NCBI GenBank assembly: GCA_023249255.1
Contig: JAHFCY010000025.1
Location: 1 to 19,096 of the forward strand
Direction: 5' to 3'
Length of the DNA: 19,096 nt
Source of the DNA: Candidatus Lindowiibacteriota bacterium
Lineage (GTDB): Bacteria > Lindowbacteria > 2-12-FULL-62-27
The stretch's first letter is position 1; every line of letters starts with the position of its first letter. The position numbers were made by a program, and so were the translations under genes. Below are positions 947 to 12,700 of this stretch, one piece after another. The notes under the pieces were generated by a model. That model had not been told where the DNA came from and made no database searches. It saw nothing but the letters and a program-made list of their open reading frames with translations.

Positions 947-1222
947 ATGAAATCGACGGGGACAAAGACCAGAATTCTCTATGCGGCGGTGGCCGGATTG
1001 CTCACGGTTGCCAGCGCAGGATGCGGACAAAAACCGGCCGAACAGCCGCAACCGGCCGCTCCGGAAGCGAGCACACAACCGGCCGCCACAGACGCCATGG
1101 ACAAACACGCCTGCAAGGGCATGAACGCATGCTCGGGCAAAGGCGGCTGCGCGGTCAAGGACCAGAACGGATGCAAAGGCCAAAATCCCTGCAAAGGAAA
1201 AGGTGGCTGCAAAAGCGCATAA
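947..1222 (+). CDS. Bufferin-type Cys-rich precursor peptide, exported
   Basis: This 91-residue protein has an export signal (basic start, hydrophobic stretch to about residue 24) ending ASAGC. That could be cut by signal peptidase I after ASA, or be a non-canonical lipobox, since -3 is Ser. A Pro/Ala/Gln-rich linker follows, then two near-identical cysteine modules, CKGMNACSGKGGC and CKGQNPCKGKGGC, each C-x5-C-x5-C, six cysteines in all. The next gene is an MNIO (DUF692) enzyme, and bufferin precursors next to MNIO genes are modified on Cys to 5-thiooxazoles and bind copper in the periplasm. By that logic this is the substrate. The repeated modules resemble BufA2-type precursors more than the DUF2282 (BufA1) type, but I cannot confirm the subfamily. 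The start has a perfect AGGAGG five bases upstream. Confidence 0.85.
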   Translation: MKSTGTKTRILYAAVAGLLTVASAGCGQKPAEQPQPAAPEASTQPAATDAMDKHACKGMNACSGKGGCAVKDQNGCKGQNPCKGKGGCKSA

Positions 1223-2106
1223 CTATCGTCCAGAGCGCGACGCACGCCCGAAAAGTCCGGAAAGTTTTTGACGTCCCCTCACTGGGGATCGGTCTTGGTC
1301 TGCGCGCGCCCCACTATAATTATATTCTCGAACACCGGCCGCCCGTCGGCTGGTTCGAAATCATCTCCGAAAATTTCATGGTCGATGGCGGAAAACCGCT
1401 CTCGTACCTCGACCGGTTCCTCGAACACTACCCGATCATCCAGCACGGCGTTTCCATGTCGATTGGCAGTACCGGCCCCTTGGACCGCGAGTATCTTAAA
1501 AAACTCAAACGGCTTATCAAAAAAACTCGCACGCCTTGGTTTTCGGACCACCTGTGCTGGTGCCGCCACAACGCCCACCAGATGCATAATCTCCTTCCCC
1601 TGCCATACACCCGCGAAGCCGCCATGCACGTCGCCGAAAAAGCGCGCATTGTTCAGGATTATATGGAAACACCGTTCCTGCTCGAAAATCTGTCGAGCTA
1701 CGTCGAGTTCACCAGCTCGGACATGACGGAGTGGGAATTTTTGACGATGATCGCCGACAAGGCCGGCTGCGGAATTCTTCTCGACGTCAACAACATCTAT
1801 GTCTCGGCCCGAAATCACGGATTCGATCCCATGGACTACATCCTCGGCATCCCGCCCGAACGCGTCGTTCAAATGCATATCGCCGGCCACACCGATTTTG
1901 GCGCCTATGTCCTCGATACCCACGATCACCCGGTCCGGCGCGAAGTCTGGGAGCTCTACCGCGCGGCCTGCCGGAGAATGGGCGACGTTTCGTTCATGCT
2001 TGAACGTGATGACCACATCCCCCCGTTTCCACAGGTGTTCGATGAAGTCCTCCAGGCCAAAAAATTTCATGCCCACATCCTTGAACCGGCGCGCGATCCG
2101 CACTGA
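1171..2106 (+). CDS. bufB: MNIO (DUF692) family peptide-modifying enzyme, BufB-like
   Basis: A multinuclear non-haem iron oxygenase with a TIM-barrel fold, expected to oxidise cysteines of the precursor encoded just upstream. With numbering from this start, family residues are visible in order: WFEIISENFM (Glu67), IQHGVS (His92), FSDHLCW (Asp126, His127), FLLENLSS (Glu172), LLDVNNIYV (Asp205), QMHIAGH (His236, His240), LDTHDHPV (Asp249, His251) and FMLERDD (Glu278). The iron-ligand set looks complete. Start choice is uncertain. The conserved part begins near GIGLGLR (residue 39) and the only ATG close upstream is at 1171, which overlaps the precursor gene by 52 bases. A non-ATG start after 1222 is possible. 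The longer frame back to 877 runs antiparallel to sense through the precursor gene and is not credible. Confidence 0.93.
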   Translation: MQRPKSLQRKRWLQKRITIVQSATHARKVRKVFDVPSLGIGLGLRAPHYNYILEHRPPVGWFEIISENFMVDGGKPLSYLDRFLEHYPIIQHGVSMSIGSTGPLDREYLKKLKRLIKKTRTPWFSDHLCWCRHNAHQMHNLLPLPYTREAAMHVAEKARIVQDYMETPFLLENLSSYVEFTSSDMTEWEFLTMIADKAGCGILLDVNNIYVSARNHGFDPMDYILGIPPERVVQMHIAGHTDFGAYVLDTHDHPVRREVWELYRAACRRMGDVSFMLERDDHIPPFPQVFDEVLQAKKFHAHILEPARDPH

Positions 2107-3061
2107 TTCACCGGGACTGGCCCGGCTTCAAACCTGGTTCTGCCGCGTGATCACCACGCCCGAATCAAAATTTGAAACCGGCGCAACAGACTTCGCGTCC
2201 CACATTGCCGGAGGAAACCTGGACCGGGCGCGGGAACGCATGAAGGTCTACGTCCGGGATTACTGGGCGCGCTGTATCGACTCCCTCCACGAGGATTTCC
2301 CGGGACTTGCTCATATTCTGGGAAGGAAAAAATTCAACTCATGGATGGAACAATACGTGACGGCCTGCCCCTCCCGGTCTTATACGCTTCGGAATCTTGG
2401 CGCCCGCCTCAAAAACTTCATGCGCGACCACTACCGGGGAAAAAATAAGGCGCTCGTCCTGGACATGATCCGATTTGAGTGGGCCAAGATCGAATCGTTT
2501 GATCAGGGAGCTGACTCGCAGTTTGATCCGGCCCGGCTCGATTCAATTCAGAAATCTGATATCAGCCGCATGCGCCTCTCTTTCCAGCCGCATGTATCGC
2601 TTCTTGAACTCGATTATCCCGTCTTCGATCTATCCGACCGGCTCCGCGCAAAGAATGCTCGCGCCACCAAAATATTCATGCCGCGGAAAAAAAGATGCCA
2701 CACGGTCGTCTATCGCCGGGATGGCGTTGTCCATCACCGCGAGATTGAACGGCCTTTTTTTCTCATGCTGATGGAACTTCAGAAGGGCGCAACTTTGGCC
2801 CGCACAAGTGATTTGGCCGTCAAGCGCCTCAATCGCCGGGAATTGTCCCGGCTGGAAAAAAACGCGCAAAGCTGGTTTCAACTCTGTGTCTCAAACCGCT
2901 GGCTGCGCGCCCCGGGAGGAACACACACCCATGAACGAACCGTGTCAGGTTTCGCAGAAGGTGATGAGTTTTCTGTCCAAAATCGACTGGTTGCCGCCCC
3001 TCCTCGTCCGCCTCGCCGTCGGATACGTGTTCTTAATGACCGGCAAAGGCAAACTGTCTAA
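2069..3061 (+). CDS. bufC: DUF2063-family partner of the MNIO enzyme, BufC-like
   Basis: BufC proteins accompany BufB and are thought to present the precursor's leader to the enzyme. The start of the conserved part, LARLQTWFCRVITTP, matches the family N-terminus, and EDFPGLAHILG and SRSYTLRNLG are also characteristic. The first usable ATG is at 2069, overlapping bufB by 38 bases; there is no good ribosome site, so translation is probably coupled. The conserved region finishes near SNRWLRAP (about 2915), where a family member would normally stop. Here the frame stays open for another 45 or so residues, Arg/Pro-rich, and ends at 3061, 131 bases inside the DoxX gene. The tail is probably a by-product of a lost stop codon. 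Function is inferred from operon context and family. Confidence 0.85.
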   Translation: MPTSLNRRAIRTDSPGLARLQTWFCRVITTPESKFETGATDFASHIAGGNLDRARERMKVYVRDYWARCIDSLHEDFPGLAHILGRKKFNSWMEQYVTACPSRSYTLRNLGARLKNFMRDHYRGKNKALVLDMIRFEWAKIESFDQGADSQFDPARLDSIQKSDISRMRLSFQPHVSLLELDYPVFDLSDRLRAKNARATKIFMPRKKRCHTVVYRRDGVVHHREIERPFFLMLMELQKGATLARTSDLAVKRLNRRELSRLEKNAQSWFQLCVSNRWLRAPGGTHTHERTVSGFAEGDEFSVQNRLVAAPPRPPRRRIRVLNDRQRQTV

Positions 3062-3389
3062 CCTCGACCGGACGACGGAATTTTTTCAAAGCCTCGGCAT
3101 CCCCATGGCTCACGCCAATGCCATCCTCGTCTCCACGCTCGAATGCGCGGGCGGAATTCTTTTCATGGCCGGATTTCTCACGCGACTCATTTCCATTCCG
3201 CTTGCGGCCATCATGGCCGTCGCCATCGCCACCGCCAAATGGGGCGACGTGGCCGACCTTGCCGACTTTGCAGGCCTGTCAGAGTTGGCCTACCTGTTGA
3301 TTTTTCTCTGGTTCATCACCGCCGGCGCTGGCCGAGCCAGCGTCGATCATCTGATTTGCAGCAAGTGCGACAAACCGACCCCCGTTTGA
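2931..3389 (+). CDS. DoxX family membrane protein
   Basis: A 152-residue inner-membrane protein with about four hydrophobic segments. The first, PLLVRLAVGYVFLMTGKGKL, has the DoxX hallmark of an Arg in the helix followed by GxxKL. The downstream helices contain LECAGGILFMAGFLTRL and YLLIFLWFITAGAGRASVD. The C-terminus ends in a short CSKCDK pair of cysteines. DoxX genes commonly close bufferin operons, where a quinone- or membrane-linked redox role has been suggested but not proven. The start at 2931 has GGGAGGA about 12 bases upstream and begins inside the bufC frame. The last codons overlap the -35 box of the following tRNA promoter, so the operon is packed against tRNA-Ser(GCT). Confidence 0.88.
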   Translation: MNEPCQVSQKVMSFLSKIDWLPPLLVRLAVGYVFLMTGKGKLSNLDRTTEFFQSLGIPMAHANAILVSTLECAGGILFMAGFLTRLISIPLAAIMAVAIATAKWGDVADLADFAGLSELAYLLIFLWFITAGAGRASVDHLICSKCDKPTPV

Positions 3390-3425: not shown

Positions 3426-3518
3426 GGAGAGGTGGCCGAGTGGCCGAAGGCAACCGCCTGCTAAGCGGTTGAACGCTTAATAGGTGTTCCCCGGGTTCAA
3501 ATCCCGGCCTCTCCGCCA
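3426..3518 (+). tRNA. tRNA-Ser (anticodon GCT)
   Basis: GGAGAGG pairs with CCTCTCC; the discriminator is G and CCA is encoded (3516-3518), unlike the other two tRNAs here. The stem ACCGC/GCGGT holds the loop CTGCTAA, so the anticodon is GCT (reads AGC/AGU). A long variable arm confirms class II. The stop codon of the convergent activator gene begins two bases after the CCA. Confidence 0.97.
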
Positions 3519-3520
3519 AC

Positions 3521-5086
3521 CTAAATTCCGAACTCCTTGATTTTTTTTGACAGGGTATTGCGGTGTATCCCCAGAACTTCTGCGGCTTTGACTTTGTTCC
3601 ACCGCGTTTGATTCAGCGCGGCGAGGATTACATCCCGCTCCATTTTGTCCATTTTTGGGACGGAAGTTGAAATATGAACATTCTGAATATTGGTTTCGCG
3701 GGCCGCCGCATCCGGCGCCGTGCCTCCCTCGGCGGGCTTTTGATCCGCACTTCCCCCGTCCGAGGGTGGGACGGATCCGATGCCGTGATAGGCATGTTGC
3801 AGGGTGAGCGATTTCAGATGATACGGAACATGCTCCGCAAGGATATCGTCCGACGGGGCCTCGAGCACCATGCGTTCGACGCAATTTTCAAGTTCACGGA
3901 TGTTCCCGGGCCAGTCGTACTGGTGGAGAATGTCGAGGACTTTCGGCGAGACGTATTTGACCTGCTTGTTGTTTTTCTTGTTGTACTTCTTGATGAAATT
4001 TTCGATGAGATACGGAATGTCCTCCTTGTGGTCCCGAAGCGGCGGAATTTTGATCGGGATCACATTCAAGCGGTAAAACAGATCCTCCCGGAACCGGCAC
4101 GCTTTGACTTCGGCTTCGAGATTCCGGTTCGTCGCCGCGATGATGCGCACATCGCCGTGAAACGTTTCCGTCCCGCCCAGCCGCTCGTAACTTCCGTCCT
4201 GCAGGACTCGAAGCAGTTTGGTCTGGATGGAAACCGGGATTTCGCCGATTTCGTCGAGAAACAGAGTTCCGCCATTCGCCCGTTCGAACCGGCCCTGCCG
4301 CCGGCTGATCGCCCCGGTGAAAGCCCCCTTCTCGTGGCCGAAAAGTTCGCTTTCGAGCAGAGTCTCCGGAATGGCGGCGCAGTTGACTTTGATGAACGGC
4401 TTGTCCCTTCGTAGGCTGTTCTGGTGAACCGCGTTGGCGAATAGTTCCTTGCCGGTGCCCGTCTCGCCCAGAAGCAAAACCGTCGCACTGCTCTTTGAGA
4501 ATTTGAGAACGGATGAGTAAAGATCCGACATGGCCTTGCTGTTTCGGATGATCGCCGTGTCCTGCCGGCGAAGATCGTCCAGACTCGAGAGTTTTGTTGT
4601 GTGAACAGGCTCCGATTTGAATGACTCGAACTGCTCCTCCGAAATGTTGTAGTATCTGCAGATGTTGTCGATCATCTGGGTCTTCCCCGCGACGACCAGG
4701 TCGACGGTCTTGTCCAGAAAAAGTTGAAAATCCGTCAGGATCGTCCGGGTAGCGTGAATGGGATAGCACGTGCAGAGCGTCAGCGTGGTGTGATCCTCTT
4801 TCAACGGCATGATCACAAATTTACAGGCAAATCTTACGGGGATGCGTTCAATGACATTGAGCGGAATGTCATAATCGTCGAGATTCACGCACCGAAGTCC
4901 GTTCTGAAGACCATACGCCATGAGGACTTCGTCCTGCGTGGCCGATCCTTCCTCAATCAGAATTTCTCCGAGCAATTTATAAGGCGAATCCTCCTGAATC
5001 CTCAATGCCCTGTCCAGCTGTTCCTTGGAAATAACATTGGCCTCGACAAGGATATGTCCAATTCGCTCTTTTTTTTCTGATTCCAT
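3521..5086 (-). CDS. Sigma-54-dependent activator with N-terminal MshEN (c-di-GMP receptor) domain
   Basis: A 521-residue regulator in three parts. Residues 5-145 match the MshEN / T2SS ATPase N-terminal fold: [20 protein letters not shown] and [11 protein letters not shown] are the two MshEN-type motifs (in the first, the usual Gly of LVxxG is replaced). Residues 175-415 are an AAA+ sigma-54 activator domain: Walker A GETGTGKE (207-214), the sigma-54-contacting loop GAFTGA (254-259), Walker B GGTLFLDE (272-279) and the [11 protein letters not shown] segment (391-401). A Gly/Pro/Ala-rich linker leads to a Fis-type helix-turn-helix (485-519). No phosphoreceiver domain is present, so the sensory input should be the MshEN domain, which in MshE-type proteins binds c-di-GMP. 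The start at 5086 has AAGGAG six bases upstream; an in-frame ATG 20 codons earlier lacks this. It is divergent from the PLD gene, whose promoter looks sigma-54-type. Confidence 0.93.
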
Positions 5087-5117
5087 TCCATTCTCCTTAA
5101 GAAACGTGCAAAATGCA

Positions 5118-5146
5118 TATTTAATGTGCATTACGTATATAGTCAA
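5118..5146 (-). promoter_or_regulatory. Candidate sigma-70-type promoter for the activator gene
   Basis: TTGACT (5141-5146) and TAAATA (5118-5123) on the minus strand are spaced by 17 bases; the -35 is good and the -10 is poor. Initiation near 5111 would give a 25-base leader containing the AAGGAG ribosome site. Confidence 0.4.
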
Positions 5147-5198
5147 TATGCAAATCGAACTTCAGCGACAATATATCTGCATATCAAATTATTTTCAA

Positions 5199-5228
5199 TA
5201 GACATCTGCAGAGTTCTTTGTATGTCTA
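5199..5228. promoter_or_regulatory. Candidate upstream activating sequence (inverted repeat)
   Basis: TAGACAT (5199-5205) and ATGTCTA (5222-5228) form a perfect 7-base inverted repeat with 16 bases between. Its centre lies about 102 bases upstream of the predicted PLD transcription start, which is where sigma-54 activators usually bind. A third half-site ATGTCTA occurs at 5308-5314, close to the start site. That the neighbouring activator binds here is inference. Confidence 0.45.
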
Positions 5229-5289
5229 ATATCTAATAATATCAATTAGTTATGAAAAATTAAGGATATAACTCCGAAATATGTGCAAT

Positions 5290-5305
5290 TGGAACACTAG
5301 TTGCA
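5290..5305 (+). promoter_or_regulatory. Sigma-54 (-24/-12) promoter of the PLD gene
   Basis: TGGAAC, five bases, then TTGCA matches the consensus TGGCAC-N5-TTGCA at all but one position, with the required ten bases between the GG and GC pairs. The predicted start near 5316 rules out the ATG at 5318 as a normal start and fits the one at 5357. The divergent neighbour is a sigma-54 activator. Confidence 0.7.
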
Positions 5306-5356
5306 ATATGTCTATACATGAACGATATGAAAAACAATGGGGTGACAAAGACAAAT

Positions 5357-7354
5357 ATGAAAAAAGACGTCATTTTTGGTTGTTTCCTTGCATTTATCGC
5401 ATTCATTCAGCCGGCATTTTCAGCCGATTCCGACATGCGGATCACAGAAATTGCCGCCGCGCCGATTTCCGCCGAGGAATGGGTCGAGATCTACAATCGC
5501 GGCAGTGCCGATGTGAACGTCAGCGGTTGGAAATTCTGGGAGTCCGCCACGAACCACGGCCTGTCGCTGATTCAAGGGTCGACGACGATCCCCGCCGGCG
5601 GATACGCCGTCATTTGCAACAACGAAACCTCCTTCCTCGCCGCCAATCCGGGATTCAGCGGGACCTTGATCGACGCCTCCTGGTCGAGCCTTTCGACGAC
5701 CGGCGAGGAAATCGGATTGAAAACGTCGGCGCTCACCGCGATCGAAATCTTCACCTATCCGGCGACGACCGCCGGTACGCTGGAGCGGGTCAACGGCGAC
5801 TGGGCCGATTATACTTCGGCCAACTGGAAGCAGTCCCAAGTCGCCAAAGGCACACCTGCCAAGGTCAACGACGATTACTGGTTTCATTTCTATACGAATG
5901 AGCCGTCCAACTCGAAGAACATCGACATCCCCCTCGTGAACCTCATCGACTCGGCCACGACCCGGATCTACGCCGCGATCTACGATTTGACTCTCCAGAA
6001 TGTCTGCACGGGACTCGTCAAAGCGAAAGCCCGCGGAGTGGACGTCAAAGTCGTATGCGAATTCGACAATTACAATCCCAATTTCACCTATCTTGAGAAC
6101 AACGGCATCGTCGTCATCAAGGACAACTCGACTTCCTATGACATGCACAACAAATTTTTCGTGATCGATGACAAGGTCTGGACCGGATCATTCAATCCGA
6201 CCGTCAACGACAGGAGCAACAACGCCAACAACGCGATCTGGATTCGCGACAATTCGCTGGCCAATACTTTCACGGACGAATTCAACCAGATGTTCAACGG
6301 CTCTTTCCACAATGCCAAGACGGTCGACGCCAACCATATCTTCACCGTGGCCAATCAACCGGTCAAAGCGTGGTTCGGGCCCAAGGACAATCTCGAACAG
6401 AAGGTCAACACCGAGATCGACAGCGCCCTTCACACCCTGAATTTTGGAATATTCACGTTCACCCTCCCGTCCGTGGCCGCCAAGATTGATCAGGCCCGGG
6501 TTCAGGGCGTGAATGTACAGGGAATCTGCGACGCCGCCCAGGCCGCCAGCGTCTACGCCCAATACCAGCCGCTCAAGGATTCCGGTGTGAACATCCGCAA
6601 GGATGATTACAACACCAACCCCGGATTTTTCCATTGGAAAGGGTTCGTGGCCGACTATGCCGACCCGACATCCGATCCGACGGTCGTGATCGGTTCGGCC
6701 AACTGGACGAACAAGGCGCTTCCGGTGGCCGGCGGCGGGAACGATGAAAATCTTCTGTTCGTCATTTCCTACGATCTGGCGAACCGCTATTACGTCGCCT
6801 GGAAAAACGACTGGGACAAACACACGCAGGCCCCGGCAAGCCCGGCGGGCCACATCGTCATCAATCAATTCGCCAGCCGCGGCGCCTCTTCCGCTTCGGA
6901 CGAATTCGTCGAACTCTACAATCCGAGCGCCGCCAACATTTCGATCGCCAACTGGAAACTCCAGTACAAATCCTCAACCGGCGCAACCTGGAGCGACCGC
7001 GTAACGTTCCCGGCCGGCACGGTCATCAACGCGGGCAAATTCCGCCTGACCGCCAACAGCGCCGGTTACACGGCTCCGGCCTCCGGTGTGACCCCCGACA
7101 ACTGGTGGAGCGTCACGAGCGGCTCCGCGGATGACGGCCATTTCAGGGTCATCAGCGACACCGGCAGTGTGGTCGATCTCGTCGGCTACGGCACAACGGC
7201 CGACAGCCCGGAAGGCGCATCCCCCGCCCCCAGCCAGGGCACGACCGCGAACGGCAAATCGGTCAAGCGATTGACAGACGGCGGCGACTCGAACAACAAC
7301 GGCGCCGATTTCTCCGTCATCACCGCGCGAACCCCCCGGAACAGTTCGAACTGA
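5357..7354 (+). CDS. Exported phospholipase D-family protein with two lamin-tail domains
   Basis: A 665-residue secreted protein. The signal peptide (residues 1-23) ends in AFSA. Residues 25-165 form a lamin-tail-like beta domain (MRITEIAAAP, EEWVEIYNRG, VNVSGWKF). Residues 180-490 are a two-motif PLD domain: HNKFFVID (His264, Lys266, Asp271) and HWKGFVAD (His426, Lys428, Asp433), each followed by a GSFNPT or GSANWT turn. Residues 498-660 form a second lamin-tail domain (IVINQFASRG, DEFVELYNPS, ISIANWKLQY). Both catalytic HxKx4D motifs are intact, so it should be an active phosphodiesterase; in exported proteins with this layout a nuclease is more likely than a lipase, but the substrate is not visible. 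I chose 5357 because of the signal peptide and the promoter position. It appears to be a single-gene unit. Confidence 0.9.
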   Translation: MKKDVIFGCFLAFIAFIQPAFSADSDMRITEIAAAPISAEEWVEIYNRGSADVNVSGWKFWESATNHGLSLIQGSTTIPAGGYAVICNNETSFLAANPGFSGTLIDASWSSLSTTGEEIGLKTSALTAIEIFTYPATTAGTLERVNGDWADYTSANWKQSQVAKGTPAKVNDDYWFHFYTNEPSNSKNIDIPLVNLIDSATTRIYAAIYDLTLQNVCTGLVKAKARGVDVKVVCEFDNYNPNFTYLENNGIVVIKDNSTSYDMHNKFFVIDDKVWTGSFNPTVNDRSNNANNAIWIRDNSLANTFTDEFNQMFNGSFHNAKTVDANHIFTVANQPVKAWFGPKDNLEQKVNTEIDSALHTLNFGIFTFTLPSVAAKIDQARVQGVNVQGICDAAQAASVYAQYQPLKDSGVNIRKDDYNTNPGFFHWKGFVADYADPTSDPTVVIGSANWTNKALPVAGGGNDENLLFVISYDLANRYYVAWKNDWDKHTQAPASPAGHIVINQFASRGASSASDEFVELYNPSAANISIANWKLQYKSSTGATWSDRVTFPAGTVINAGKFRLTANSAGYTAPASGVTPDNWWSVTSGSADDGHFRVISDTGSVVDLVGYGTTADSPEGASPAPSQGTTANGKSVKRLTDGGDSNNNGADFSVITARTPRNSSN

Positions 7355-7431: not shown

Positions 7432-7466
7432 GACCCGGAGTTTCGGTTTTAGATTCCCTGATTTTT

Positions 7467-7553
7467 GGAGGCGTTGCAGAGTGGACGAATGCACCGGTCT
7501 TGAAAACCGGAGTGCCCTCACGGGCACCGGAGGTTCGAATCCTCCCGCCTCCG
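7467..7553 (+). tRNA. tRNA-Ser (anticodon TGA)
   Basis: GGAGGCG pairs with CGCCTCC, with G as discriminator at 7553 and no encoded CCA. The stem CCGGT/ACCGG holds the loop CTTGAAA, giving anticodon TGA. The variable arm is a clear hairpin (GTGCCC, TCAC, GGGCAC). The convergent glycosyltransferase stop codon begins three bases after its end. Confidence 0.97.
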
Positions 7554-7555
7554 AT

Positions 7556-8821: not shown

Positions 8822-11800
8822 TTAGTGATGGAAGGGGTTGGGGTTGTTCGACCACGTGTGGTGATCCGGATCGGTTGATGTGGATTCTGAAACCATGCTC
8901 TGCGGCAACGGAGTATTGAAGTTGCCGTCATTCGGATCGTAAAACACCGTTCCCTGAAATGCCGCCTGCGGCGAATGGCCGTCACCGTCACCGTCCTGGA
9001 TGGTCTGGCCGCCGCCCGGCCAGCTGCCGCCCGTCATCGGCACCGTCCCGCCCACGTTGACGTAACCGGGTCCGGCGTAGGCGGTCATTTGGAAAGCTGT
9101 CGTCAGCGTCCAGGGGGGGCCGCCATTTCCTCCGGTGACCGATCCTGCCCGATCCGGGTTGAAATATGTGCGGAATCCGTCCGTATGCTGGTCATATCGA
9201 ACGCCCAGCGTGGCATCGTATTGATTGCCCATGCCCGTCACGATCAGCCCGTGCGACCGCGCCGGCTGTGACCACTTGTTGCGAGGGTCGGTGTGGTTGA
9301 AATATTCTTCGATTGCTGAAAACCCGTCGGCGTCGGCATCGGATGAAGCATCCGACGCGGAACTGGAAGACAAACCATTTGCGTCCTCCCAGATATCCGG
9401 GAGCATGTCCATATCGGCGTCGGTACTCGCATTGGTGGGACGCTGCGTAAGCGTCTTACTGGGTTCAGGCCCGCTTCTGCGCGGATTGGATCCCGCGTTA
9501 TACTCGTCTTTATTTGTAAATCCATCGCCGTCGGGGTCCGTCAGCCCGTTTGCGGTCATCAATCCATCCGCGTCGTTGTTGGGATTCAGGCCGTATTTGC
9601 GTTCCCACGCGTCGTTCATTCCGTCACCGTCCAGGTCCGACTCGGGCTTGTTCGGTTTGGAATTTGCGCTCTTGGGGTCGGACCCGTCGATGAACTCCGA
9701 CACGTTTTTGTATCCGTCGTTGTCGAAATCTCCCGCCGCATCCGCCGCATTGTTCGGATTAAACCCGTTGGCGACTTCCCAATTGTCGGGCATCTCGTCG
9801 TGGTCGGCGTCCGCGACGGTGACGCTTCCCGGATTTGACGCGGCCGAATGCGGGTCGGTTCCGTTCTGGAATTCCTGCTTGTTCGTGTATCCGTCGCCGT
9901 CGGGATCGGTCGTCGGGTTCACGGTCATCGATCCATCCACGGAGCTGTTCGGATTGAATCCATTCGCGATCTCCCAGTTGTCGGGAAGCCCGTCCATATC
10001 GACGTCGACGATCGTGACCGTGCCGGGAGTCGAGGTCGCAAGGAGCGGATTGGACCCGCTCTGAAATTCCTGGAGATTGGAATATCCATCGACATCGAAG
10101 TCCGTGGAGGCATCGGCGGCGTTGCTTGGGCTGAATCCGTTGGAGATCTCCCAGTTGTCGGGCAGTCCGTCATGGTCGGCGTCGCCGCTTGTCGAAGCGC
10201 CGCTGGTCGCGGGATTGGAACTCGAATTTTTCGGATCTGTCCCGATTTGAAATTCCTGAAGATTCGTATACCCGTCGTTGTCGTAGTCGCTTGAGGCGTC
10301 GTTTGAGTTCGGATTAAACCCGAACGCAATTTCCCAGCTCGTCGGCATCCCGTCGCCGTCGGCGTCGGAACTGGCCGCGCCGGGCGTGGACGAGGCCGAC
10401 TGCGGATCGGAGCCGCCAAAAAACTCGTTGATGTTGATCACGCCGTCGTGGTCGAAGTCCTGGTTGGCATCCGGGAAATTTGAATTGAGACCGTGCGCAA
10501 TTTCCCAGTCGTTGGGCATCCCGTCGCCGTCGTTGTCCACAAACGTCACGCTCGACGCATACGGAACGCTGTAAGACGAAGTCGGGCTGGAATGGCCCGT
10601 GAATTCCTGAAGATTGGTATATCCATCGCCGTCGAGATCGCCGGAAGCGTCCAGCGCACTGGCCGGATTGAGGCCGTTCGCCCTTTCCCAGTCGTCGTAC
10701 ATGCCGTCTTTGTCGATGTCCGGATCCAGCGTGGAGGGATTGAAAAGAAGACCGTTTCCGTTCGGGTCAAGGTTTAAATTCTGAGTTAAAAAGGAGCTGA
10801 CGATATTGGTGACAGGTATAAATCCTTGGCCCGCAATATTCACCGATGCCACACCGCCGACAGTTTGAAGGGTCGGGAAGGATGTCGCGCTTTTTGGATT
10901 CGTTCCCGCGCCGAATTCAAGAATGTTCGGATATCCGTCCTTGTCTGCATCCCGCGAGGCGTCGGACGGATCGTCCGGATTCAGCCCATTGGCCAATTCC
11001 CAGTCGTTGGGCATGCCGTCATGATCGCGGTCAAGCATATTCCCGCTCAATACATTCGGGTCCACCAGCGGCCCCGGGCCGATGAGACCGCCGCCGGGAG
11101 CCGGGCCAATGGGAGACAACGGCCCAATTTGACCCAGAGGACCAGGACCGCCGGGACCAAGACCAATGGGACCGAGGACAAGCGGAATAATCGGAACAAC
11201 ATTCGGGCCTTGTCGCCCATTATTTTCCGCAGAAAATCCAGACTGACCATTTCCAAGACTGCTCACAGGACCAAACGCGCGGGCAAAATCAAATGGCCCG
11301 CCAATCGGACCGCCTGCCGGGCCGGCAATCGCAGGTACACCCGGACCTCCTCCGACAGGCCCGCCCGGAATCGGAGCGCCCGGAACACCCGGAGCGCCGA
11401 TGGGTGATCCTGCCGGACCTGCAGTGACTCCGGGAATCGGAGCCCCGACAACCGGCTGTTGGGGAACACCCGCCGGTGCGCCGCCAAACGGCGCGCCCGG
11501 ACCAGCTGCAGCAACAAGACCCGGAACGGTCGCGAGGAGCGCAGCCATTCCTTGCATCGGATTGCCCGCCGGACCGCCGGCTGGACCGACACCTGCGGCC
11601 GCAGGAACACCGCCAACTCCGGGTACGGCTCCAGCGGCAGACGCCGCGACCATGGCTTCCATCCCCTTCACCGCAGGTTTCGCGGCCTCCGGCGCCGCGC
11701 CCGGACCGGCAGCGTCGCCAACCGGCGCGCCCACAGCAGGTGCGGGGGCGCCCGGCGCAGGTGCAATAGGCGCAACATCGGCACCGACGACTGGAACTTC

Positions 11801-12592
11801 AGGGATCGTGAGAGACGACGCAATCGCCGCAAACGATCCGAACCCCTGTTCAATCGCCGCGGCCGCTTCCGGCGACGCTCCGCCGGCTATCGCGATATCA
11901 GACATCACAGCGCGCGCTTCTTCTGTCGGCGCGGCGCCGGCGGCGATCTGCGCCACCACCGATGCCGACGCGCCGGCTTTTTCAGCCGCCTTGGCCGCCG
12001 CCTCCCGGACTTCCGCGGACGGCGGAATATTCAGAATCTGTTGAATCGCCGGCGGCAGTTTGTCCGCCTGAACCGGCGCAACGTACCCGGCGCCCTCCGA
12101 GATCGTGTTGACCGCGCCAACGCCCGGCGTGTAGGCGCACTCAAGAACAGTCCCGCGAATGCCGGCAACAGAAGAAGGTGTAGTCACAGTAAATTTATTG
12201 GCTTTTCCACTTTTTTTATCGACGTCTGATTTGATCTTGCCAACCTGGAGAAAGACTTCTGAAAAAAACTGGTCCTTGGTTTCGTAATTCCGGCCGACGG
12301 AAAACTGGGCGAGAGGTTCGACGTCCGTCTTGCTGTTCGCAAACGCGATCTGAGCCTTGCCGTCGACTCCCGATGCAACCTGGTCGCCGGATCCGATCTC
12401 CATGCCCTCTTTAGCCTGGACCCACTCCTGCGTTCCGAATTTCTGGACTTCGACCGTACCTTCAATTTTACTGAATTTTCCCACCATGGGTTTGACATCC
12501 GGTTTATCATCCGCGGCCGACGAAATGCCCGCCGGGATCAAAAATGCCGCAAGCAGGAAAAATATCGTCACCAGGAACCGGATCTTTTTCAT
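8822..12592 (-). CDS. Large exported protein: FecR domain, Gly/Pro-rich region, nine TSP3-like calcium repeats
   Basis: A 1256-residue exported protein. The signal peptide runs to about residue 26 (ISSAA). Residues 38-150 are a FecR-type domain (KIEGTVEVQ, GSGDQVASGVDGKAQI, TTPSSVAGIRGT). Residues about 170-340 are Ala-rich, and residues about 340-515 are a Gly/Pro/Ala low-complexity stretch without a strict collagen triplet. Residues about 521-1110 hold nine thrombospondin type 3 / EF-loop-like repeats of the form DxDxDGxPDxWE-x-ANGxNP, DxDxDGYTNLQEF, GTDP. The last 145 residues end in a GGSWPGGGQ and DGDGDGHSP segment. The Asp spacing fits calcium binding. No membrane anchor, LPXTG or PEP-CTERM tail is seen. 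The start at 12592 has GAGGTG eight bases upstream. Probably a calcium-stiffened surface or matrix protein; FecR domains of this exported kind are of unknown function. Confidence 0.88.
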   Translation of the reverse strand: MKKIRFLVTIFFLLAAFLIPAGISSAADDKPDVKPMVGKFSKIEGTVEVQKFGTQEWVQAKEGMEIGSGDQVASGVDGKAQIAFANSKTDVEPLAQFSVGRNYETKDQFFSEVFLQVGKIKSDVDKKSGKANKFTVTTPSSVAGIRGTVLECAYTPGVGAVNTISEGAGYVAPVQADKLPPAIQQILNIPPSAEVREAAAKAAEKAGASASVVAQIAAGAAPTEEARAVMSDIAIAGGASPEAAAAIEQGFGSFAAIASSLTIPEVPVVGADVAPIAPAPGAPAPAVGAPVGDAAGPGAAPEAAKPAVKGMEAMVAASAAGAVPGVGGVPAAAGVGPAGGPAGNPMQGMAALLATVPGLVAAAGPGAPFGGAPAGVPQQPVVGAPIPGVTAGPAGSPIGAPGVPGAPIPGGPVGGGPGVPAIAGPAGGPIGGPFDFARAFGPVSSLGNGQSGFSAENNGRQGPNVVPIIPLVLGPIGLGPGGPGPLGQIGPLSPIGPAPGGGLIGPGPLVDPNVLSGNMLDRDHDGMPNDWELANGLNPDDPSDASRDADKDGYPNILEFGAGTNPKSATSFPTLQTVGGVASVNIAGQGFIPVTNIVSSFLTQNLNLDPNGNGLLFNPSTLDPDIDKDGMYDDWERANGLNPASALDASGDLDGDGYTNLQEFTGHSSPTSSYSVPYASSVTFVDNDGDGMPNDWEIAHGLNSNFPDANQDFDHDGVININEFFGGSDPQSASSTPGAASSDADGDGMPTSWEIAFGFNPNSNDASSDYDNDGYTNLQEFQIGTDPKNSSSNPATSGASTSGDADHDGLPDNWEISNGFSPSNAADASTDFDVDGYSNLQEFQSGSNPLLATSTPGTVTIVDVDMDGLPDNWEIANGFNPNSSVDGSMTVNPTTDPDGDGYTNKQEFQNGTDPHSAASNPGSVTVADADHDEMPDNWEVANGFNPNNAADAAGDFDNDGYKNVSEFIDGSDPKSANSKPNKPESDLDGDGMNDAWERKYGLNPNNDADGLMTANGLTDPDGDGFTNKDEYNAGSNPRRSGPEPSKTLTQRPTNASTDADMDMLPDIWEDANGLSSSSASDASSDADADGFSAIEEYFNHTDPRNKWSQPARSHGLIVTGMGNQYDATLGVRYDQHTDGFRTYFNPDRAGSVTGGNGGPPWTLTTAFQMTAYAGPGYVNVGGTVPMTGGSWPGGGQTIQDGDGDGHSPQAAFQGTVFYDPNDGNFNTPLPQSMVSESTSTDPDHHTWSNNPNPFHH
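9262..11032 (-). repeat. Nine in-frame TSP3-like coding repeats
   Basis: Each unit is about 55-65 codons and contains an acidic DxDxDG loop, a DNWEIANGFNP-type helix cap, a second DxDxDG loop and a YTNLQEF-GTDP ending. Units 1 and 2 are separated by about 48 unrelated residues, and units 6 and 8 carry an insertion with an NPTTDPDGDG or NGLTDPDGDG loop. Unit 9 is more divergent: the DG of its first loop is DM. Confidence 0.85.
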
Positions 12593-12690
12593 CGATATAC
12601 ACCTCGTCCTTTTTTTTATCGCGCTGGCTCTATGATCGGCTTTCGGCTGATACCTGATACTATGTAGTTTAATATTAGTGTGTATATCGA
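12592..12690. promoter_or_regulatory. Perfect 11-base inverted repeat spanning the FecR/TSP3 promoter and start codon
   Basis: TCGATATACAC (12592-12602) overlaps the ATG and the bases just before it; its exact reverse complement GTGTATATCGA (12680-12690) lies in the spacer between the -35 and -10 boxes. This is the layout of a two-operator repression loop, but that is inference. Confidence 0.4.
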
Positions 12691-12700
12691 CGGGAATCAA
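12672..12700 (-). promoter_or_regulatory. Candidate promoter of the FecR/TSP3 gene
   Basis: TTGATT (12695-12700) and TAATAT (12672-12677) on the minus strand are spaced by 17 bases. The -35 box lies right behind the terminator of the preceding gene. The leader would be about 73 bases. Confidence 0.5.

Follow-up and report, generated by a model that had tools for sequence, protein, structure and literature searches.

A divergently transcribed MshEN-containing sigma-54 activator and exported phospholipase D-type enzyme in Candidatus Lindowiibacteriota, a possible cyclic-dinucleotide-responsive pair

Introduction

Several bacterial enhancer-binding proteins (bEBPs), which activate sigma-54 promoters, are known to depend on cyclic di-GMP (c-di-GMP), namely BerB (PMC5552954), FleQ and VfmH (PMC10714721), and Nla24 binds this second messenger as well (PMC8844925). 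BerB of Burkholderia cenocepacia has no N-terminal sensory domain, and its target is a regulator gene for exopolysaccharide (PMC5552954). VfmH of Dickeya dadantii is a c-di-GMP-binding protein of the bEBP type that controls a secreted enzyme, pectate lyase; it has a REC domain and the sequence GAFTDA, RpoN was not found with it, and in both VfmH and FleQ the c-di-GMP site is in the AAA+ domain and involves Arg residues, and neither has an MshEN domain (PMC10714721). Here, we analysed a stretch of 19,096 nucleotides from a Candidatus Lindowiibacteriota bacterium (contig JAHFCY010000025.1; the whole stretch is called the window below), in which positions 3521 to 7354 hold a bEBP gene and, divergent from it, the gene of an exported protein with two phospholipase D (PLD) domains. 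In contrast to BerB, this bEBP has an MshEN domain as candidate sensor, and its target would be the gene of an exported enzyme. The likeness to VfmH would lie in a c-di-GMP-binding bEBP that controls such an enzyme, while the MshEN domain and the sequence GAFTGA set the protein apart.

In the literature that we found, MshEN is mainly a regulator of pilus and secretion ATPases. The N-domains of MshE and PilF (GSPII) are homologous to the one described here, with the same two-motif build, and their (R/K/L)LG variants bind c-di-GMP with nanomolar affinity; they regulate pilus or secretion ATPases, whereas here the domain sits in a transcription activator and has G18 and L58 replaced (PMC5013675, PMC11731258). 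A bEBP that senses through MshEN was not described in the open-licence literature that we found on MshEN, or on MshEN/T2SSE_N with sigma-54. The exported protein shares the HKD motifs with the nucleases Nuc (1byr) and NucT (6ehi, PMC5714352), which are similar to its first PLD domain; their chains comprise about 155-180 residues with a single PLD domain, unlike the enzyme here with two PLD and two LTD domains (PMC5714352).

Results

An MshEN-containing activator and a two-motif PLD protein

The activator is encoded on the minus strand (3521..5086) and comprises 521 residues. Pfam assigns to it an MshEN domain (residues 1 to about 151, 4634..5086; 34.7 bits against a cutoff of 23.1), a Sigma54_activat AAA+ core (4049..4552; 242.9 bits), an AAA_lid_14 and a Fis-type helix-turn-helix domain, HTH_8 (3530..3649; 54.8 bits), and MshEN is the sole recognisable input domain. 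The Walker A sequence GETGTGK and GAFTGA are both intact. The sequence-only reading, which had proposed a sigma-54 activator with MshEN as its only visible sensor, agrees with the domain analysis. In a search with the single protein, residues 6-149 aligned with N-domains of known structure from PilB (E=5e-14) and MshE (E=6e-8). AlphaFold models calculated without an alignment were poor, with a mean pLDDT of 43.8 for the N-domain and 30.8 for the PLD protein.

On the plus strand, the divergent gene (5357..7354) encodes a protein of 665 residues with the order LTD-PLD-PLD-LTD (two PLDc_2 and two LTD matches in Pfam). By reading, the protein begins with a Sec signal peptide, MKKDVIFGCFLAFIAFIQPAFSA, encoded at 5357..5425 and ending in FSA before an Asp residue. 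HKD motif 1, HNKFFVID followed by GSFN (6146..6169), is kept in a relative from another genus described below, and motif 2, HWKGFVAD followed by GSANW (6632..6655), aligns with HDKFMAID there. With two HxKx4D motifs and GSxN, the protein belongs to the PLD superfamily, as had been read from the sequence before. The C-terminal LTD domain matches best over residues 494-612 (6836..7192). That the protein is secreted, as also proposed, holds as far as Sec export by the reading of its signal peptide; nothing beyond Sec-exported is supportable.

The gene spans given earlier were correct, whereas the start codons needed correction. The bEBP gene starts at ATG 5086, preceded by AAGGAG at 5093-5098. 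For the PLD gene, the former start at 5318 was set aside for ATG 5357, which is preceded by the Shine-Dalgarno-like GGGGTGA (5339..5345).

The own genome encodes, on contig C322 (L014 4715-7459), an exported paralogue of the enzyme with a PLD-HhH-PLD order (HhH, helix-hairpin-helix); the gene next to it, in direct divergent orientation, codes for another protein that has two PLD domains. Counterparts of this PLD-HhH protein are found in two relatives (G001 contig C33, G002 contig C4). PADLOC matches to DrmC and DpdK were weak and were attributed to the common PLD fold.

A -24/-12 promoter and a TGCAT dyad in the intergenic region

Between the two genes lies a region with 30% GC compared to 57% for the window. 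It contains a -24/-12 element, TTGGAACACTAGTTGCA (5289..5305, plus strand), with the correct GG-N10-GC spacing. This is the highest-scoring site on both strands of the 19-kb window, ranked by a simple consensus score made for this report, and the earlier description of a near-consensus sigma-54 promoter is thus upheld. The predicted transcript would start at about 5316 and have a leader of about 41 nucleotides to ATG 5357. A sigma-70-like site before the PLD gene was not found, and the one before the bEBP gene scored no better than chance.

Further upstream, an inverted repeat, ATGCATATTTAATGTGCAT (5113..5131), is centred 169 bp upstream of the -24 GG and forms a candidate upstream activator site; a pair of further inverted half-sites, ATATGCAAAT and ATCTGCATAT, spans 5146..5184. 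A similar dyad, ATGCACATATAATTGTGCAT, is found on contig C40 of the relative G001, where a glucoamylase gene is preceded by a -24/-12 site and the dyad lies about 160 bp further upstream. Both dyads have the form ATGCA-N9/10-TGCAT, and each is followed by the -24 element at a distance of about 160-170 bp. For ATGCA-N8-11-TGCAT, 0.07 matches are expected in the window and 0.02 in the C40 locus (L156), figures that serve as a guide only, because the C40 dyad had been spotted by eye before testing. Two of the 18 matches in three genomes adjoin MshEN-bEBP genes, namely those of the window and of G001 C40. Among the six of eight own-genome matches that were inspected, only the dyad at 5113-5131 combines strongly A+T-rich surroundings with a strong -24/-12 site downstream. 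We consider this dyad likely to be the binding site of the bEBP.

The pair recurs in a second genus

Is the divergent pair conserved? Besides the own assembly (G000), the genome set holds two relatives of the same family, G001 from another genus and G002; with the genomes that come next in similarity, the own assembly has no more than the domain in common. On G001 contig C24, an MshEN-bEBP gene (36021 to 34480, minus strand) lies divergent from a PLD gene (36337-37251, plus strand; E=2.3e-45). The PLD protein encoded there has both HKD motifs and, as read from its sequence, a signal peptide, and contains no LTD domain in the alignment or in a Pfam scan; the conserved core is therefore a bEBP and a two-HKD enzyme. 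The promoter is kept as well: from GG on, the G001 site GGTACTCTAATTGCAATA is identical to the window site GGAACACTAGTTGCAATA at 15/18 positions, and its distance to the ATG of the signal peptide is similar. When the intergenic region of G001 was dinucleotide-shuffled 5000 times, this identity was never reached at any position. By its own score the G001 promoter is only third in its 18-kb locus, so that its position and its identity to the window site carry the argument. Moreover, rpoN, for which the sequence-only reading had proposed to look, is present in the own assembly (RpoN on contig C315, 175.7 bits). Hence the description of a sigma-54-type divergent pair stood up to the comparison, in that genes and aligned -24/-12 site recur in G001, except that the LTD domains are not kept there.

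In G002, which is 81% complete, the searches found neither the bEBP nor the PLD gene. Searches beyond the family, which covered 386 genomes with profiles of the N-domain and of the full length as well as 195 genomes of another phylum and scored a few candidates per genome, brought up no MshEN-bEBP of this kind. A scan of genome contigs returned only bEBPs that lack MshEN as judged by our profile. A longer match in genome G059 (query 44-425) was rejected, as its N-terminus reads as response-regulator-like.

Four MshEN-bEBPs are thus at hand, two each in the own genome and in G001, and they form one clade with full support. The two copies without a divergent PLD gene, on own contig C240 and G001 C40, sit after LacI-type genes. 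On C240 (L013 972-6380), the MshEN-bEBP gene overlaps the end of the LacI-type gene and is followed by a helix-turn-helix protein with a phosphotransferase system EIIA domain and by hydrogenase-4-like genes; there is no PLD gene. The G001 C40 copy lies upstream of a gene for a malectin-glucoamylase-F5/8C protein, before which the TGCAT dyad, the -24/-12 site and two LacI-operator-like repeats (GTAAGCGCTT) are found (L156 10206-10450).

Ligand-contacting residues of the MshEN domain

Does the MshEN domain of the bEBP bind c-di-GMP? In MshEN of V. cholerae, c-di-GMP is bound by two 24-residue motifs (PMC5013675). An alignment tally of the four MshEN-bEBPs revealed that the residues in polar contact with c-di-GMP (G11, Q32, G40 and Q61) are invariant (4/4), and that L25, L29 and G47 are kept in all four. 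The R9 position holds R in the window copy, Q in G001 C24 and L in the other two; at the R38 position, V stands in G001 C40 (K-L-V-G by direct reading, where the tally, placing L before V, gave L) and L in the other three. Accordingly, the two motifs start with R-I-G and L-L-G in the window copy, with I replacing L in motif I, and G001 C24 has Q-I-G. The view that a domain lacking the motif II Arg cannot bind was dropped in the light of PilF GSPII-B, in which K and L replace the two Arg residues and which binds c-di-GMP at 6 nM; (R/K/L)LG was proposed as the motif start (PMC11731258). Binding was further found to depend on the Gln residues and on the Gly of motif II, PilF GSPII-A constructs with Ser in place of the motif II Arg do not bind, and at positions 55 and 59 (L54 and L58 in MshE) a large hydrophobic residue suffices (PMC12002112). 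The kept polar contacts and the first residue of each motif, R and L, which suits (R/K/L)LG, make c-di-GMP binding by the window MshEN plausible, with N18 and Y58 of this copy and the Q at R9 of its G001 partner as points of doubt. With 12 GGDEF matches in the own genome, and with an MshEN ATPase of canonical type on contig C111 (RLG in both motifs), c-di-GMP signalling is available. Taken together, we give c-di-GMP an even chance of being the ligand of this bEBP.

Genomic surroundings

Three tRNA-Ser genes lie on the plus strand of the window at 783-872 (GGA), 3426-3518 (GCT) and 7466-7554 (TGA), and the bEBP-PLD pair and a bufferin-type locus occupy the two gaps between them. Flanking tRNA genes were considered as an island signature and rejected: we looked for tRNA genes near the G001 pair and found none, and the tRNAs are therefore not part of the system. 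The bufferin-type locus (947-3389), of the ribosomally synthesised and post-translationally modified peptide type, comprises a Cys-rich precursor-like peptide (947-1222) with repeated CKG.N.C.GKGGC, the MNIO maturase BufB (NF050167, 345 bits against a cutoff of 310, domain from about 1285), a further open reading frame running to about 3061, and DoxX. On the other side, 8822-12700 encodes a protein of 1292 residues that combines a FecR-like domain and TSP3 repeats with a long stretch rich in Pro, Gly and Ala. A minus-strand tRNA-Ala call by ARAGORN (11777-11860) lies within this coding sequence and is probably false.

Discussion

We propose that the pair is a local sigma-54 switch, probably with a single target. 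The Fis-type domain of the bEBP would bind the TGCAT dyad in the A+T-rich intergenic region, and its AAA+ ring would contact RpoN-RNA polymerase at the -24/-12 site and open the promoter, upon which the divergent PLD gene would be transcribed and the enzyme exported via Sec. MshEN would be the input, where a cyclic dinucleotide, most likely c-di-GMP, may alter AAA+ assembly or ATPase activity. The product would be a PLD phosphodiesterase with two HKD motifs and, most likely, a nuclease that acts on nucleic acid outside the cytoplasm, and the LTD domains of this species may be adhesive or tethering modules. Within this scheme, it is highly probable that the bEBP drives the divergent promoter; that it does so and also receives input from some small ligand via MshEN seems somewhat better than an even bet. 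The full chain, in which the activator senses c-di-GMP or a related cyclic dinucleotide via MshEN and commands an exported nuclease through one sigma-54 promoter, is a tentative proposal that we place below even. The sequence-only reading had suggested that the pair could be a complete switch from second messenger to enzyme, which exceeds the evidence.

Several observations weigh against the proposed scheme. The divergent pair is seen in two genera only, and the two regulators that are linked to PLD genes do not group as sisters in the tree (approximately unbiased test, p=0.014), so that their linkage to PLD is not a simple orthologous pair; as the G001 regulator is on a long branch, either the linkage is ancestral to the MshEN-bEBP clade or the tree is misled. 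The exact TGCAT dyad is absent from the G001 C24 intergenic region, and the recognition helix of the G001 C24 regulator reads HRHTL versus HRNTL, which would fit a changed binding site. In MshEN itself, G18 is N, K or R among the four (N in the window copy, K in G001 C24), L54 is replaced by V and L58 by Y (the latter in 4/4), and the PLD-linked G001 bEBP has Q at R9. Given this Q and the K at G18, ligand binding may differ between the two pairs. The earlier suggestion, drawn from MshEN domains of the MshE type, that c-di-GMP is the signal is thus plausible from the polar contacts and the Leu for Arg, while G18, L58 and the G001 R9 deviate. These deviations would also suit an MshEN that no longer binds a nucleotide and serves dimerisation or the docking of a partner such as a secretion or pilus component, with the switch operated by protein contacts or by bEBP abundance. 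Indeed, non-binding MshEN domains are known from PilF GSPII-A (PMC12002112) and Xanthomonas GspE/XpsE (PMC5013675). However, G11, Q32, G40 and Q61 are invariant where a non-binder should drift, and GSPII-A lacks both Gln residues and the motif II Gly, unlike the four MshEN-bEBPs; we therefore lean away from a non-binding domain, while taking it as a serious contender.

Could the bEBP instead control another promoter or a regulon, with the PLD gene a mere neighbour that has a sigma-54 or sigma-70 promoter of its own? Candidate bEBPs are numerous in the genome (25 at first look), and the paralogue on C240 keeps company with a LacI regulator and hydrogenase-like genes instead of a PLD gene. Yet arrangement and promoter are kept in a second genus, no other inspected own-genome dyad shares the setting of 5113-5131, and the PLD gene has no sigma-70-like site, which together make a separate target quite improbable. 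As to the product, the PLD superfamily includes lipases, synthases and nucleases, and a phospholipase or another lipid- or polymer-modifying enzyme would find some backing in mitochondrial cardiolipin hydrolase (MitoPLD) among the solved-structure matches and in a weak cardiolipin synthase match of the G001 protein (NCBIfam, E=5e-4). Against this, the Nuc endonuclease (1byr, E=2e-11) heads the solved-structure matches of the first PLD domain, NucT is listed along with MitoPLD after it, the best NCBIfam models are those of NucT, though at 51.8 bits far under the cutoff of 351, and the exported C322 paralogue carries a helix-hairpin-helix domain of the DNA-binding type. The protein is a relative of NucT and not a member of the NucT equivalog, and it resembles PLD-type nucleases (Nuc, NucT) more closely than lipases. 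A lipid- or polymer-modifying enzyme thus appears rather unlikely, and nucleic acid is a fairly likely substrate. Because its nearest named relatives are Nuc and NucT, a nuclease is the most likely single activity, which narrows the earlier wording of a nuclease or phosphodiesterase.

In summary, a bEBP with an MshEN domain and an exported two-HKD enzyme are divergently encoded around a -24/-12 promoter that recurs in a second genus. If the proposed reading is true, MshEN would act here as the transcriptional sensor of a one-component system, for the first time as far as the literature that we found goes, and the lineage would have duplicated the MshEN-bEBP beside other exported or metabolic genes. 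If MshEN also serves as the input of sigma-54 activators, a predictable route from c-di-GMP to transcription would follow. In this organism, the route would control an exported nuclease-like enzyme, for which DNA of the matrix or scavenged DNA could be the substrate.

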